Below the pieces are notes generated by a model. The model saw only the letters and a list, made by a program, of their open reading frames with translations. It had not been told where the DNA came from and searched no databases. A DNA stretch of 62,553 bases. It comes from Flavobacteriaceae bacterium. Lineage in GTDB: Bacteria; Bacteroidota; Bacteroidia; Flavobacteriales; Flavobacteriaceae. Positions 32,203 through 40,280 of the stretch are shown piece after piece; the stretch's first letter is position 1; each line of letters opens with the position of its first letter. The DNA is taken from contig JAQWFV010000003.1 in assembly GCA_029238555.1 (NCBI GenBank), forward strand, positions 1 to 62,553. Direction: 5' to 3'. The position numbers and the translations under genes are program-made.

Positions 32203-33018
32203 ATGGACAAGTTGCCTAAAGTGGCCATGCCACTTGTTATTTTATTTATTGTATTAATCGTTTTTGTTTCTAAATCTACTTTGACAATAGGTTCAGGTAG
32301 GGCAGGAGTACTTTATAAGACCTTTGGAAATGGTGTAGTAACAGATGAACCGCCGTTAGGAGAGGGGTTTCATGTGATTGCTCCATGGAACAAAGTGTTC
32401 ATTTATGAAGTGCGTCAGCAAGAAGTTTTTGAAAAAATGCAAGTGCTTTCTTCTAATGGATTGGAAATAAAGTTAGATGCCTCAGCTTGGTTTGAGCCTA
32501 AATATGAATTTTTAGGAAAATTACACCAAGAGAAAGGAGAAGCTTATGTACAAAGAGTATTGTTGCCTACCATTAGATCTGCTGCTCGTTCTGTAGTGGG
32601 TAGGTATACTCCAGAACAATTATACTCTAGTAAAAGGGATGCGATTCAAGCAGAGATTTTTGAAGAGACCAAGAAAATTGTAGATGGGCAGTACATTCAA
32701 TTAAATGAGGTTCTAGTTAGAGATGTTACCTTGCCAGCGACTATTAAAACCGCTATTGAGAGTAAACTAAAGCAAGAACAGGAGTCTTTGGAGTATGAGT
32801 TTAAATTGATCACAGCAGCAAAAGAGGCCGAGCGTCAGATTATTGAGGCACAGGGTAAGGCAGACGCTAACAGAATTCTGAGTGCTTCTCTCACAGATAA
32901 AATTTTACAGGATAAAGGGATTGAAGCTACTATTAAATTATCTGAATCGCCAAATTCAAAAGTGATTGTCATTGGTGGTGGAGATTCAGGAATGCCTATT
33001 ATTTTAGGAAATAACTAA
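32203..33018 (+). CDS. Prohibitin/SPFH-domain membrane protein
   Basis: A 271-residue protein with one N-terminal transmembrane helix (about 8-26, AMPLVILFIVLIVFVSKS), an SPFH/prohibitin domain (about 28-210), and an Ala/Glu-rich coiled coil (SKLKQEQESLEYEFKLITAA). These proteins form large rings in the inner membrane and often modulate FtsH-like proteases. No protease or NfeD partner gene is next to it. A terminator-like hairpin follows. Confidence 0.88.
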   Translation: MDKLPKVAMPLVILFIVLIVFVSKSTLTIGSGRAGVLYKTFGNGVVTDEPPLGEGFHVIAPWNKVFIYEVRQQEVFEKMQVLSSNGLEIKLDASAWFEPKYEFLGKLHQEKGEAYVQRVLLPTIRSAARSVVGRYTPEQLYSSKRDAIQAEIFEETKKIVDGQYIQLNEVLVRDVTLPATIKTAIESKLKQEQESLEYEFKLITAAKEAERQIIEAQGKADANRILSASLTDKILQDKGIEATIKLSESPNSKVIVIGGGDSGMPIILGNN

Positions 33019-33024
33019 ATCTAT

Positions 33025-33055
33025 TTTCAAAGGCACCTCTTTTGAAATATTTTTC
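33025..33055 (+). terminator. Probable terminator after the SPFH gene
   Basis: TTTCAAAGG (33025-33033) pairs with CTTTTGAAA (33039-33047) with one G-T wobble and a CACCT loop, followed by TATTTTTC. The stem is AT-rich and the T tract short. Confidence 0.45.
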
Positions 33056-33125
33056 ACAAGGATTTAGGGGTTTGTGATATTTTAAAAACTATTTAATTAT
33101 CTCATGCCAATTTAAAGGAATTGAT

Positions 33126-33133
33126 TACTTTTG
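33126..33133 (+). promoter_or_regulatory. -7 promoter element of the his operon
   Basis: TACTTTTG, an exact TAnnTTTG. The predicted transcript start is about 33139, just before the ATG of the his leader peptide at 33144. Confidence 0.6.
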
Positions 33134-33143
33134 TACTTTAATT

Positions 33144-33197
33144 ATGACACAAACTCATACACATCATCATATTATATACTGCGCTCAGGCGAGGTAA
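33144..33197 (+). CDS. hisL: Histidine operon leader peptide
   Basis: A 17-codon reading frame encodes MTQTHTHHHIIYCAQAR, with four His codons (33156-33158, 33162-33170), three of them consecutive. It stands between the his promoter and an intrinsic terminator that precedes hisG. This is the arrangement of a classical attenuator: ribosomes stall at the His codons when charged histidyl-tRNA is scarce. The stop TAA is at 33195-33197. It is too short to be reported by ordinary gene finders. Confidence 0.88.
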   Translation: MTQTHTHHHIIYCAQAR

Positions 33198-33262
33198 TGA
33201 TGTATTGTTGTTAACAACCATATTGAAACCCGTTTGAGCAATCAAACGGGTTTTTATTTTTT
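33183..33262 (+). promoter_or_regulatory. his transcription attenuator: antiterminator and terminator
   Basis: The terminator hairpin is AAACCCGTTTGA (33226-33237), loop GCAA, TCAAACGGGTTT (33242-33253), a perfect 12-bp stem, then a T-rich run to about 33262. A competing helix pairs GCTCAGGCG (33183-33191) with CGTTTGAGC (33231-33239), nine pairs including two G-T wobbles, and uses the terminator's left arm. The upstream strand lies in the last leader codons. A ribosome finishing at TAA 33195 would cover it and let the terminator form. One stalled at the His codons leaves it free. GTTGTTAACAAC (33207-33218), a perfect palindrome, lies in the loop and may be a pause hairpin. Confidence 0.85.
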
Positions 33263-33275
33263 TATTAAAATAATT

Positions 33276-34136
33276 ATGAAGAACAGACTTAAAATTGCGA
33301 TTCAAAAGAGTGGACGTTTACACGACGACTCTATTGATTTATTGAAGGCATGTGGAATTTCTATAGACAATGGAAAAGACCAATTAAAAGCCATGGCCAG
33401 AAATTTTGACTTAGAGGTCTTTTACCTAAGAAATGGAGACATTCCACAATACCTTAAAGACGGTGTGGTAGACATTGCCATTATTGGGGAGAATGTTCTT
33501 ATTGAAAAGGGAGAGGGCATTGCTATTGCAGAGAAATTAGGATTTTCTAAATGTAAAGTATCTATGGCCATTCCTAAAGAGACCCTCTATAATGGGGTGA
33601 AAGATTTTGATGGAATAAAGATTGCCACTTCATACCCTAATACTGTTCAATCTTATTTGAAAAAAAATGGTATTCATGCAGACATACATTTAATCAATGG
33701 ATCTGTGGAGATAGCTCCTAATATTGGCTTGGCAGACGCCATCTGTGATATTGTCTCTAGCGGTAGTACCCTGTTTAAAAACAACCTCAAAGAGGTAGAT
33801 GTTATTTTAAAAAGTGAGGCTGTTTTAGCGGTTTCACCTGAACTATCTTCAGAAGTTAGGCCTATTTTAGAAAAGCTTGTCTTTAGAATTAAATCAGTCT
33901 TGAGGGCTAGAGAATCTAAATACGTATTACTCAATGTCCCTAATGAAAAATTAGATGCTGTGTTGAACATACTTCCTGGAATGAAAAGCCCCACAGTGCT
34001 ACCCTTAGCAGAAGTGGGATGGAGCTCTGTGCATACGGTCATTCAGAAAGATTCTTTTTGGGAAGTAATAGATTTGTTAAAATTAGCAGGTGCAGAAAGT
34101 ATTTTAGTGTGCCCAATAGAGAAAATGGTTTTGTAA
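33276..34136 (+). CDS. hisG: ATP phosphoribosyltransferase (long form)
   Basis: A 286-residue enzyme joining ATP and PRPP, the first and feedback-inhibited step of histidine synthesis. It is the long HisG type, with a C-terminal ACT-like regulatory domain (about 215-286, including LNVPNEKLDAVLNILPGMKSPTV) and so no need for HisZ. Seen: KIAIQKSGRLHDDS at the start, and DAICDIVSSGSTLFKNNL for PRPP binding. ATG 33276 is used; a TTG start at 33234 would lie inside the terminator hairpin. It is separated from hisD by one base. Confidence 0.95.
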   Translation: MKNRLKIAIQKSGRLHDDSIDLLKACGISIDNGKDQLKAMARNFDLEVFYLRNGDIPQYLKDGVVDIAIIGENVLIEKGEGIAIAEKLGFSKCKVSMAIPKETLYNGVKDFDGIKIATSYPNTVQSYLKKNGIHADIHLINGSVEIAPNIGLADAICDIVSSGSTLFKNNLKEVDVILKSEAVLAVSPELSSEVRPILEKLVFRIKSVLRARESKYVLLNVPNEKLDAVLNILPGMKSPTVLPLAEVGWSSVHTVIQKDSFWEVIDLLKLAGAESILVCPIEKMVL

Positions 34137-35430: not shown

Positions 35431-36475
35431 GAGCGAATTTAATCCCCTGAGCCTCTGTAGAGAGAACGTGAAATCATTGGCTCCATATACCTCTGCTAGA
35501 GACGAATATGTGTCTAATGGGACTCAGATGGTGTTTTTAGATGCCAACGAAAATCCCAATGAGACAGGGGTCAATAGGTATCCGGACCCTTTACAAAGGT
35601 CGCTCCGCAGCAGTGTGGCTTCTTTAAAAAATCTACCTGAAAACCAATTGCTGTTTGGGAACGGTAGTGATGAAGTACTGGATTTATTATTCCGCGCCTT
35701 CTGTGAGCCCAATCAGGACGCTGTAATTACTTTTCCACCCACCTATGGTATGTATGGCGTTTTAGCAGGAATCAATAGTGTTCAAGTGCACGAAATACCG
35801 CTCACAACTGCCTTTGAAATAGACATGGAACAGTATAGAAGTCATGCTTTCACAGCAACTAAAATACTGTTTATCTGTAGTCCCAACAATCCTAGTGGAA
35901 ACCTTATGGATCGCATTCATATAGAAGAAATTCTGAATACTTTTAAGGGTTTGGTAGTGGTAGATGAGGCTTATATAGATTTCACAGATACACCAAGTTG
36001 GGCGAACAGACTGTCAGATTTTCCTAATCTGGTGGTGATTCAAACACTTTCTAAAGCCTATGGTTTAGCTGGTATTCGATTGGGTATGCTCATGGCTTCT
36101 CCAGAAATTATAAATTTACTGCACAAAATTAAACCGCCCTACAATGTCAATGAACTCACTCAATCAAAGGCACTAGAGCGATTGGAGCAAGGAGAACGAA
36201 TCCAGAGCGAAGTAAATCTGATTGTAGCACAAAGAAAAGTCCTCGAAAATGCTCTAAAGGAACTTCCCTTTGTAAAAGAAGTATTTCCTTCAGAAGCCAA
36301 TTTTGTGCTGGCCAGAGTAGATCATGCAGATCTGAGATACCGCCAATTATTAGACCAGGGTATTGTGGTTAGAAACAGGTCTAAACAGCTTCATTGTGAA
36401 AACACCCTAAGGTTTACAGTAGGTACCCCAGATGAAAATAAAAAACTCATAGAAACCCTTTATACATTGTCATGA
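35420..36475 (+). CDS. hisC: Histidinol-phosphate aminotransferase
   Basis: A 351-residue class I/II PLP aminotransferase converting imidazole acetol-phosphate to histidinol-phosphate. Seen: DANENP near residue 43, [17 protein letters not shown], the SPNNPSGN motif, VVDEAYIDF, and the PLP lysine in [15 protein letters not shown]. It overlaps both neighbours (11 bp with hisD, 4 bp with hisB as ATGA). Confidence 0.96.
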
Positions 36476-37605
36476 AAAAAATACTTTTTATAGACAGAGA
36501 TGGCACCTTAATCAAGGAACCCGAAGATTATCAAATAGACGCATTTGAGAAATTGGTTTTTTATCCCTATGTTTTTCAATATTTGGCCAAGATTGCTAGA
36601 GAATTAGATTTTGAATTGGTCATGGTCTCTAATCAAGACGGTTTGGGGACCGATTCATTTCCGGAAGACACCTTTTGGCCGGTTCAAAATTTTATAATTG
36701 ACAGTTTTGAAAGAGAGGGTGTGGTGTTTTCTAAGGTCATAATAGACAAGACCTTTGCCAGTGAGAATAAACCCACCAGAAAGCCTGGGACTGCATTGCT
36801 GTCTGCTTATATGGACGGATCTTATGACTTAGCGAATTCTTTTGTGATTGGTGACAGAATAACAGATGTGGCTTTGGCTAAAAATCTTGGTGCTAAAGCC
36901 ATTTTTATGCGACAAGAAGTAGGTCTTGGCGGCGAAGAACTCTCTGATAATCAGAAAGATTTAGAAGATTTTATTGCTAAGGAAACTACTGAATGGAGTG
37001 AGATATATAGCTTTTTAAGGGCAGGAGAACGCAAAGTTAGCCTCGAGCGTAATACCCATGAGACCCAAATTTCCATAGAGATGGATTTAGACGGTACAGG
37101 CACCTCAAGGATTAAAACTGGGATTGATTTTTTTGATCATATGTTGGATCAGTTGTCCAGACATGGATTGATAGATTTAGATATAGTGGTGACAGGAGAC
37201 TTAGCAGTAGACGAACACCACACCATTGAAGACACCGCTATTGCATTAGGAGAAGCTTTTCACAAAGCACTAGGAAATAAGCTTGGGGTAGAGCGGTACG
37301 GATTCTGCCTACCTATGGATGACTGTGAGGCGCATGTTTCCATTGATTTTGGAGGTAGAAATTGGTTGGTCTGGGAGGCTGAATTTAAACGTGAAATGAT
37401 CGGTAAAATGCCTACTGAAATGTTTGTGCATTTTTTTAAATCCTTTTCAGATGGCGCAAAAGCCAATTTAAATATAAAAGCGACCGGGCAAAATGAGCAC
37501 CACAAGATTGAGGCTATTTTTAAAGCCTTTGCCAAGGCCATAAAAATGGCGATTAAAAGAGATCCGGACAAATTATTTTTACCCTCAACCAAAGGTGTTT
37601 TATAA
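36472..37605 (+). CDS. hisB: Bifunctional histidinol-phosphatase / imidazoleglycerol-phosphate dehydratase
   Basis: A 377-residue fusion. The N-terminal HAD phosphatase (about 1-170) has FIDRDGTLI and VSNQDG, and [12 protein letters not shown] for motif III/IV. The C-terminal IGPD domain (about 185-377) has [24 protein letters not shown] and [14 protein letters not shown], with the manganese histidines. It performs steps 6 and 8 of the pathway. The fusion occurs in enterics and Bacteroidota. TAATG overlap with hisH. Confidence 0.96.
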
Positions 37606-39674: not shown

Positions 39675-40280
39675 ATGCAGATGAACATAGATTTTTCAAA
39701 ACATTCAGACGGTTTGGTTCCAGCAATTATCCAAGATGCCGAGACCAAAAATGTACTCATGTTGGGCTATATGAACCAGGAGGCATTCACACAAACCACT
39801 CAAACAAAAAAAGTGACCTTTTACAGTCGTTCAAAAAAGCGTTTATGGACAAAAGGTGAGGAGAGTGGCCATTTTTTGAATCTTGTAGACATTGCTGTAG
39901 ATTGTGATAATGACACGTTATTAATACAAGTGCACCCAGAGGGGCCTACTTGCCATAAGGGATCAGATAGTTGTTGGAATAAAGCCAACACCCCTACTTA
40001 TGGCTTTTTAACCACTTTAGAAGAGACCATTGTTTCAAGGGTTTCTAATGCTAATGGAGATCAAAGTTATGTGGCGAGTTTATTTGAGAAAGGCATTAAT
40101 AAAATTGCTCAAAAAGTGGGAGAAGAAGCGGTAGAAGTTGTGATCGAAGCCATGGACAATAACCGAGAATTATTTTTAGAGGAGTCTTCGGACCTTTTGT
40201 TCCATTATCTAATGTTGTTACACGCAAAAGAGACTAGTTTAGCAGAAGTTGTTGAACGTTTAGCCTCTAGACAAAAATGA
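39675..40280 (+). CDS. hisIE: Bifunctional phosphoribosyl-AMP cyclohydrolase / phosphoribosyl-ATP pyrophosphatase
   Basis: A 201-residue fusion. The HisI half (1-105) has MLGYMNQEAF, FYSRSKKRLWTKGEESGH and VDCDNDTLL with the zinc Cys and Asp, and CHKGSDSCW. The HisE half (about 112-201) has KGINKIAQKVGEEAVEVVIEA and the acidic ESSDLLFHYLMLL helices. It performs steps 2 and 3. It is the last gene of the eight-gene operon, which therefore encodes all pathway enzymes. Confidence 0.96.
   Translation: MQMNIDFSKHSDGLVPAIIQDAETKNVLMLGYMNQEAFTQTTQTKKVTFYSRSKKRLWTKGEESGHFLNLVDIAVDCDNDTLLIQVHPEGPTCHKGSDSCWNKANTPTYGFLTTLEETIVSRVSNANGDQSYVASLFEKGINKIAQKVGEEAVEVVIEAMDNNRELFLEESSDLLFHYLMLLHAKETSLAEVVERLASRQK

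Follow-up and report, generated by a model that had tools for sequence, protein, structure and literature searches.

A putative ribosome-mediated attenuator of the histidine operon in a Flavobacteriaceae bacterium and its conservation in the family

Introduction

The histidine operons of Proteobacteria are preceded by hisL, an attenuator in which a short leader peptide with a run of His codons is followed by an intrinsic terminator and a competing antiterminator, with hisG downstream. Here we describe an element with the same parts, very probably a ribosome-mediated transcription attenuator of the his operon, in a Flavobacteriaceae bacterium (NCBI GenBank assembly GCA_029238555.1, contig JAQWFV010000003.1, positions 1 to 62,553 of the forward strand; this whole stretch of 62,553 nucleotides is called the window). 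The trp leader of Sinorhizobium meliloti, which is reportedly leaderless, resembles it in having an attenuator leader open reading frame (ORF) at or next to the transcript 5' end, but concerns Trp and belongs to the Alphaproteobacteria, whereas the short 5' untranslated region (UTR) of the window is a prediction that holds for part of the family. The abstract of Vitreschak and colleagues (2004) is said to name Bacteroidetes/Chlorobi attenuators, and an earlier prediction in that group is possible.

Parts of PMC9413887 describe hisL along the lines given above, as well as his attenuators of Firmicutes (Bacillus cereus group, Eubacteriales, Erysipelotrichales), which likewise have 3-5 consecutive His codons and alternative terminator and antiterminator structures but lie in another phylum and are proposed in that paper to have been acquired by the lineages concerned or to have arisen within them; the word 'Bacteroidetes' is absent from its main text. 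In the accessible text of a his-gene survey of the superphylum (PMC8305728), 'leader' is absent and attenuation appears once, for enterobacteria. For Flavobacterium psychrophilum and other members of the Flavobacteriaceae, a structured element 5' of hisG has already been reported, in a paper that also notes strong hints of control by leader peptide attenuation in front of operons for amino-acid biosynthesis (PMC9723704), but the text section concerned gives no leader sequence, switch strands or covariation for hisG. It was the only paper found in our literature search to join hisG, flavobacteria, leader peptide and attenuation.

The mechanism is a familiar one in a little-described phylum, and the Flavobacteriaceae hisG element has been partly reported already. 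The present analysis extends the textbook mechanism to the Flavobacteriaceae with sequence-level evidence for the switch strands and, in outline, to much of the Bacteroidota. Since Bacteroidia ribosomes are described as failing to recognise Shine-Dalgarno sequences (PMC9976891), a co-translated leader would allow ribosome-polymerase coupling and near-5'-end initiation to be assayed directly in Bacteroidota.

The attenuator in the window

The leader ORF MTQTHTHHHIIYCAQAR (33144-33197, plus strand, as are all parts of the element) begins with ATG, comprises 17 codons, four of which are His codons starting at 33156, 33162, 33165 and 33168, and ends with a TAA stop 78 nt before the hisG ATG at 33276. 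It is preceded by a -7 promoter element of the Bacteroidota sigma-A type TAnnTTTG (TACTTTTG, 33126-33133). For this family the box is reported to sit at -12 to -5 (PMC9723704) and the distance from box to start site is put at 4-5 nt (PMC6847099); from this published spacing, the transcript is predicted to start at about 33138-33139, 5-6 nt 5' of the leader ATG.

An intrinsic terminator follows at 33225-33261, recognised by fold, covariation and terminator scan and made up of a stem between segments 3 and 4 (33225-33237/33242-33254) and a T-rich tail. Its arms AAACCCGTTTGA/TCAAACGGGTTT pair at 33226-33237/33242-33253, and a thirteenth pair is the G-U between 33225 and 33254. The antiterminator is formed by segment 2 (33183-33195), which runs from the final codons of the leader into the first base of its stop, and segment 3 (33228-33239), which overlaps the left arm of the terminator. 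The two strands make nine pairs at 33183-33191/33231-33239, two of them G-U, and continue beyond the bulged A33192 with three further pairs at 33193-33195/33228-33230. An inner hairpin (33199-33224), seen in the fold and in family pairing, consists of the helices 33199-33203/33220-33224 and 33207-33210/33215-33218, and the composite antiterminator including these helices has a computed fold of -21.6 kcal/mol. The fold of 33133-33275 as a whole was stronger than 200 of 200 shuffles (z -5.5).

A sequence-only reading of the window had proposed a 17-codon leader at 33144-33197, a 12-bp terminator at 33226-33253 with a T-run, a nine-pair competing helix involving the left arm of the terminator, with its upstream strand in the last leader codons, and, from the -7 element at 33126, a transcript start about 5 bases ahead of the leader ATG. 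All of these parts are present, the terminator with one more G-U pair and the competing helix longer than claimed, while the start site holds as a prediction.

In the proposed mechanism, RNA polymerase would start a few bases 5' of the leader ATG and a ribosome would enter the 17-codon leader. With ample charged tRNA-His, the ribosome would reach the stop codon and cover segment 2; segments 3 and 4 could then join, and transcription would terminate at about 33255-33261. With scarce charged tRNA-His, it would stall at the His codons (33156-33170) and expose segment 2, which would then pair with segment 3, block the terminator and allow hisG and the genes beyond it to be transcribed. The analysis shows the parts, their conservation, the linked variation of the three strands and the computed geometry; that the leader is translated, that ribosome and polymerase are coupled and that the switch responds to histidine is inferred.

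Conservation in the Flavobacteriaceae

HisG of the window matched 166 of 199 family genomes (165 of 198 genera), and the best 150 of the 166 loci were used as the family set, the 16 lowest-ranking being left out; the alignment has 150 rows, the window and 149 loci. A locus was scored as having a leader if a short ORF upstream of hisG encoded a His run of the pattern H.?H.?H. This pattern was found in 142/150 loci, compared with 11/1500 dinucleotide shuffles of the same regions and 0/150 on the reverse strand. Inspected by eye, seven of the eight pattern-negative loci have this ORF too, its run being shorter or interrupted, and the eighth (L130) is cut by a contig end, so that a related leader stands in 149/149 readable loci. 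Leaders of 17 and 18 codons are commonest (65 each), and across the family's leaders the His codon is CAT 545 times and CAC 59 times. Among the closest 80 named loci, a set that shares some contigs with the 150 and is not wholly independent of them, the pattern occurs in 79 and the remaining one (L287) is a degenerate copy; the nearest named relatives are Flavobacteriaceae bacterium M30B78 and Sediminicola sp. Ww92, with HisG 98% identical.

A few leaders (L016, L259, L262, L281) have 14 codons, three below the usual 17; L259, L262 and L281 are known from truncated peptides only. In L016 a TAG replaces the glutamine codon within segment 2; apart from this its switch strands are intact, so that they should still be covered by a terminating ribosome.

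The terminator lies between leader and hisG in 150/150 rows, and 98.3% of its cells are paired. Changes on both sides were seen in 8 of its 12 pairs, with 34 double-change cells against 3.1 in shuffles. The antiterminator, which shares the left arm of the terminator across the family, has 89.9% of cells paired, compared with 19.0-51.3% when slid, and 14 double-change cells against 3.5 in shuffles; its three positions past the bulge are less fixed, being pairable in 108, 84 and 142 of 150 rows. The duplex of segments 2 and 3 averages -12.5 kcal/mol against -6.2 when segment 2 is shuffled, with z below -2 in 134/150 rows. Of ten positions compared in segment 3, at least eight can pair with both rival strands, segments 2 and 4, in 144/150 rows, and in a few rows all three letters (segments 2, 3 and 4) have altered together at some positions. 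The inner hairpin of the antiterminator is less well supported, with 78.0% of cells paired and 50 double-change cells against 29.9 in shuffles, two of its slid versions reaching 67.6 and 69.4% paired. His runs in homologous leaders and covariation in both competing helices, which the sequence-only reading had expected among relatives, are accordingly both found in the family.

A covariance model was built from 51 sequences including the window, which itself scores 95.1 bits. In 60 relatives it gave a match at E up to 0.01 in 43. Matches of at least 55 bits numbered 33, one per genome, and six of these genomes had contributed sequences to the model; all 30 of the 30 matches fetched lie directly before hisG, and second matches within a genome occurred only at 46.6 bits or below. 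The model also matches the minus strand of the window at 33221-33351 (35 bits, E 1.7e-4), which probably reflects the near-palindromic terminator and not a second element.

Ribosome position and the 5' end of the transcript

Each RNA was folded as it would be just before the right arm of the terminator is made, on the assumption that the ribosome hides everything up to 13 nt beyond the first nucleotide of its A-site codon, a general value for the footprint. The left arm of the terminator was mostly paired with the leader in 145/150 RNAs when the ribosome stood on the first codon of the His run, in 144/150 when it stood on the last, and in 0/150 when it had reached the stop codon. The expectation that a terminating ribosome covers the upstream strand and a His-stalled one leaves it free thus agrees with the computed geometry. 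In RNAs folded with no ribosome the left arm was mostly paired with the leader in 53/150, or 70/149 once the predicted 5' UTR was included.

A TAnnTTTG-like box within 45 nt of the leader start was found in 149/150 rows, compared with 34/139 in a control stretch further upstream. The pattern used here (.A..TTTG, TA..TTTA or TA..TTCG) is a loose one that replaced a stricter pattern used first (81/150; control 23/139), and its result is therefore post hoc. The predicted 5' UTR is at most 8 nt in 61/149 loci and 9-30 nt in 88/149. A near-leaderless start, which the earlier reading had taken as part of the system, is thus predicted in the window but is lineage-specific, and as a family-wide requirement we reject it. 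Antitermination without a ribosome was commoner with a short UTR (44/61 against 26/88; Mann-Whitney p 6e-7, ancestry uncorrected); the UTR groups largely track leader peptide types, so this association is probably one of ancestry. The predicted 5-6 nt UTR of the window lineage is a difference from proteobacterial hisL, as is the scarcity of Shine-Dalgarno-like motifs, which precede 4/150 leaders. For comparison, leaderless mRNAs make up 5.5% of 890 in F. psychrophilum (PMC9723704), and predicted leaders of 10 nt or less 13% in F. johnsoniae (PMC6847099).

Distribution beyond the family

In the class Bacteroidia, HisG was present in 89/197 genomes, and all 82 loci outside the family were read. 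A His-run leader lies upstream of hisG in 69/82, compared with 18/1640 shuffles and 1/82 on the reverse strand. Some terminator-like hairpin accompanies 62 of these 69 leaders, and in 55 the hairpin has -12 kcal/mol or better. Switch sequences in the class may differ strongly and still match one another; L168, for example, has CGGTAAGCC instead of CTCAAGCG. The loci's own pairs of segments 2 and 3 averaged -12.1 against -9.8 for swapped ones (p 1e-4, 10000 permutations). Outside the class, a His-run ORF was seen in 13/23 inspected loci, a count made without a shuffle control on 3 loci taken by rank and 20 chosen by hand, mostly of higher identity, from 95 genomes with matches.

Some of these loci depart from the arrangement of the window. 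One Bacteroidia family has His-rich leaders (e.g. MNLILNHHLHLHHRR) before hisG in L228, L229, L230, L231, L232 and L234. No convincing terminator was found at these six loci (none at all at L229 and L231, hairpins of 0 to -3.2 kcal/mol at the other four), so the output must differ there or has been lost. At L194, L205, L211, L213 and L219 the leader ends in HHSS and is followed a few bases later by a GGAGGAA- or GAGGAA-like sequence, which at L194, L205 and L213 forms an inverted repeat across the stop codon; a strong terminator was not found at any of the five. Outside the class, L347, L348, L349 and L350 carry very His-rich ORFs with a GTG start (e.g. VNWKNTHTTHHHSGAHHPHHWHHCA), and no obvious terminator was seen by eye before hisG.

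Weighing of the evidence

The comparison strongly supports the attenuator reading. Several results nevertheless weigh against it. The number of antiterminator pairs with double changes (4) was matched by 45/500 shuffles and is not exceptional, and the shuffles ignore relatedness, so the double-change counts are supportive and are not to be taken as probabilities. The folding treats a co-transcriptional process as an equilibrium, with an assumed footprint. Without a ribosome, the window RNA has a predicted antiterminator of 0.66, because the candidate protector hairpin of segments 1 and 2 (1:2 hairpin) over the leader end (33169-33203) is weak there. The register of this hairpin in the window is not conserved in the family (55.6% of cells paired, 308/500 shuffles as high). 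In the class, the pairing of segments 2 and 3 was significant at 0.05 in 32/62 leaders, and in the swap test only 4/55 loci had no better partner for segment 2 than their own segment 3, whose median rank was 12.

We reject the window's 1:2 register as a conserved element, its pairing being no better than that of shuffles; of five measures the covariation score alone was high (11/500). The family keeps a register shifted by two columns, with 78.6% of cells paired and 116 double-change cells against 51.5, which was picked after the slid control had been viewed. The earlier description of the attenuator as complete is subject to the reservation that the protector hairpin is weak in the window and the untranslated RNA is predicted to antiterminate.

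Another RNA sensor (a T-box, a metabolite riboswitch or an RNA-binding protein) could in principle drive the terminator, the ORF being incidental, and a terminator with an antiterminator alone would suit such a sensor. Neither the window nor any of 20 relatives had an Rfam match at gathering score, and the T-box model gave no match in the Rfam scan. Below threshold, 23 matches up to E 10 could be counted in favour of a sensor (L10_leader, for example, reached 20.8 bits against a cut-off of 44); none of them is a His leader, and the best, SNORA68 (E 0.0026), SSRC10 (0.0086) and RefA9 (0.0096), were taken as chance. The Rfam His leader family, which we take to be RF00514, did not reach its gathering threshold either, a difference from proteobacterial hisL, as is the different sequence of the window element; the shared parts support the proposal that the locus follows the logic of hisL, but it goes unrecognised by the Rfam models. 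Among the remaining parts the in-frame His run is the most conserved, and segment 2 would be hidden under a ribosome that had reached the stop codon. On these grounds a different sensor appears very unlikely.

The leader might also act through translation, either by reinitiation or coupling that raises the translation of hisG or as a peptide in trans. Such action is proposed for leader genes in general in part of PMC4833913, where Bacteroidetes leader ORFs are also described as peaking 11-14 bp before genes, and it would fit the 7/69 class leaders at which no terminator was found and the 7 more that have only hairpins weaker than -12 kcal/mol. In the window, however, the distance from stop to hisG ATG is 78 nt, not 11-14, and across the family the leader stop lies 18-46 nt before the left arm of the terminator, which stands between the stop and hisG. 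We consider a translational role of this kind highly improbable.

That the hairpin simply ends transcription of the Band 7 (SPFH) gene lying upstream, with a His-rich ORF by chance, has in its favour that this gene lies on the same strand, ends at 33018 and is followed in 32900-33400 by a single terminator-like site (shuffle mean 0.1), that of the attenuator, but the probability is practically negligible given the His-run ORF in 142/150 loci against 11/1500 shuffles, the second partner that the left arm retains in the leader and the promoter-like element ahead of the leader in 149/150 rows.

A wider picture, compatible with these data, is put forward tentatively, its four parts being judged jointly as possible but less likely than not. 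A His-codon leader before hisG may be an ancestral, phylum-wide control shared by Bacteroidota and sister groups; the leader may have been kept while the three switch arms were replaced in step between families; the terminator may have been lost or swapped for another output in some lineages; and near-leaderless leaders may be 'default on', their RNA antiterminating without a ribosome. For such leaders, termination would need prompt initiation right at the 5' end of the RNA, in a phylum whose ribosomes disregard Shine-Dalgarno sequences.

The his operon

The gene at 33276-34136 (plus strand), with the domains PF01634 and PF08029, is hisG, the first gene of the his operon that the element would control. 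The order 3' of the leader is hisG, hisD, a hisC-like gene, hisNB, hisH, hisA, hisF and hisIE, the hisC-like gene being named by order and sequence, without a domain scan. The operon contains two fused genes, hisNB (HAD phosphatase and imidazole glycerol phosphate (IGP) dehydratase; 36472-37605) and hisIE (39675-40280); bifunctional his genes of such kind are treated in part of PMC8305728.
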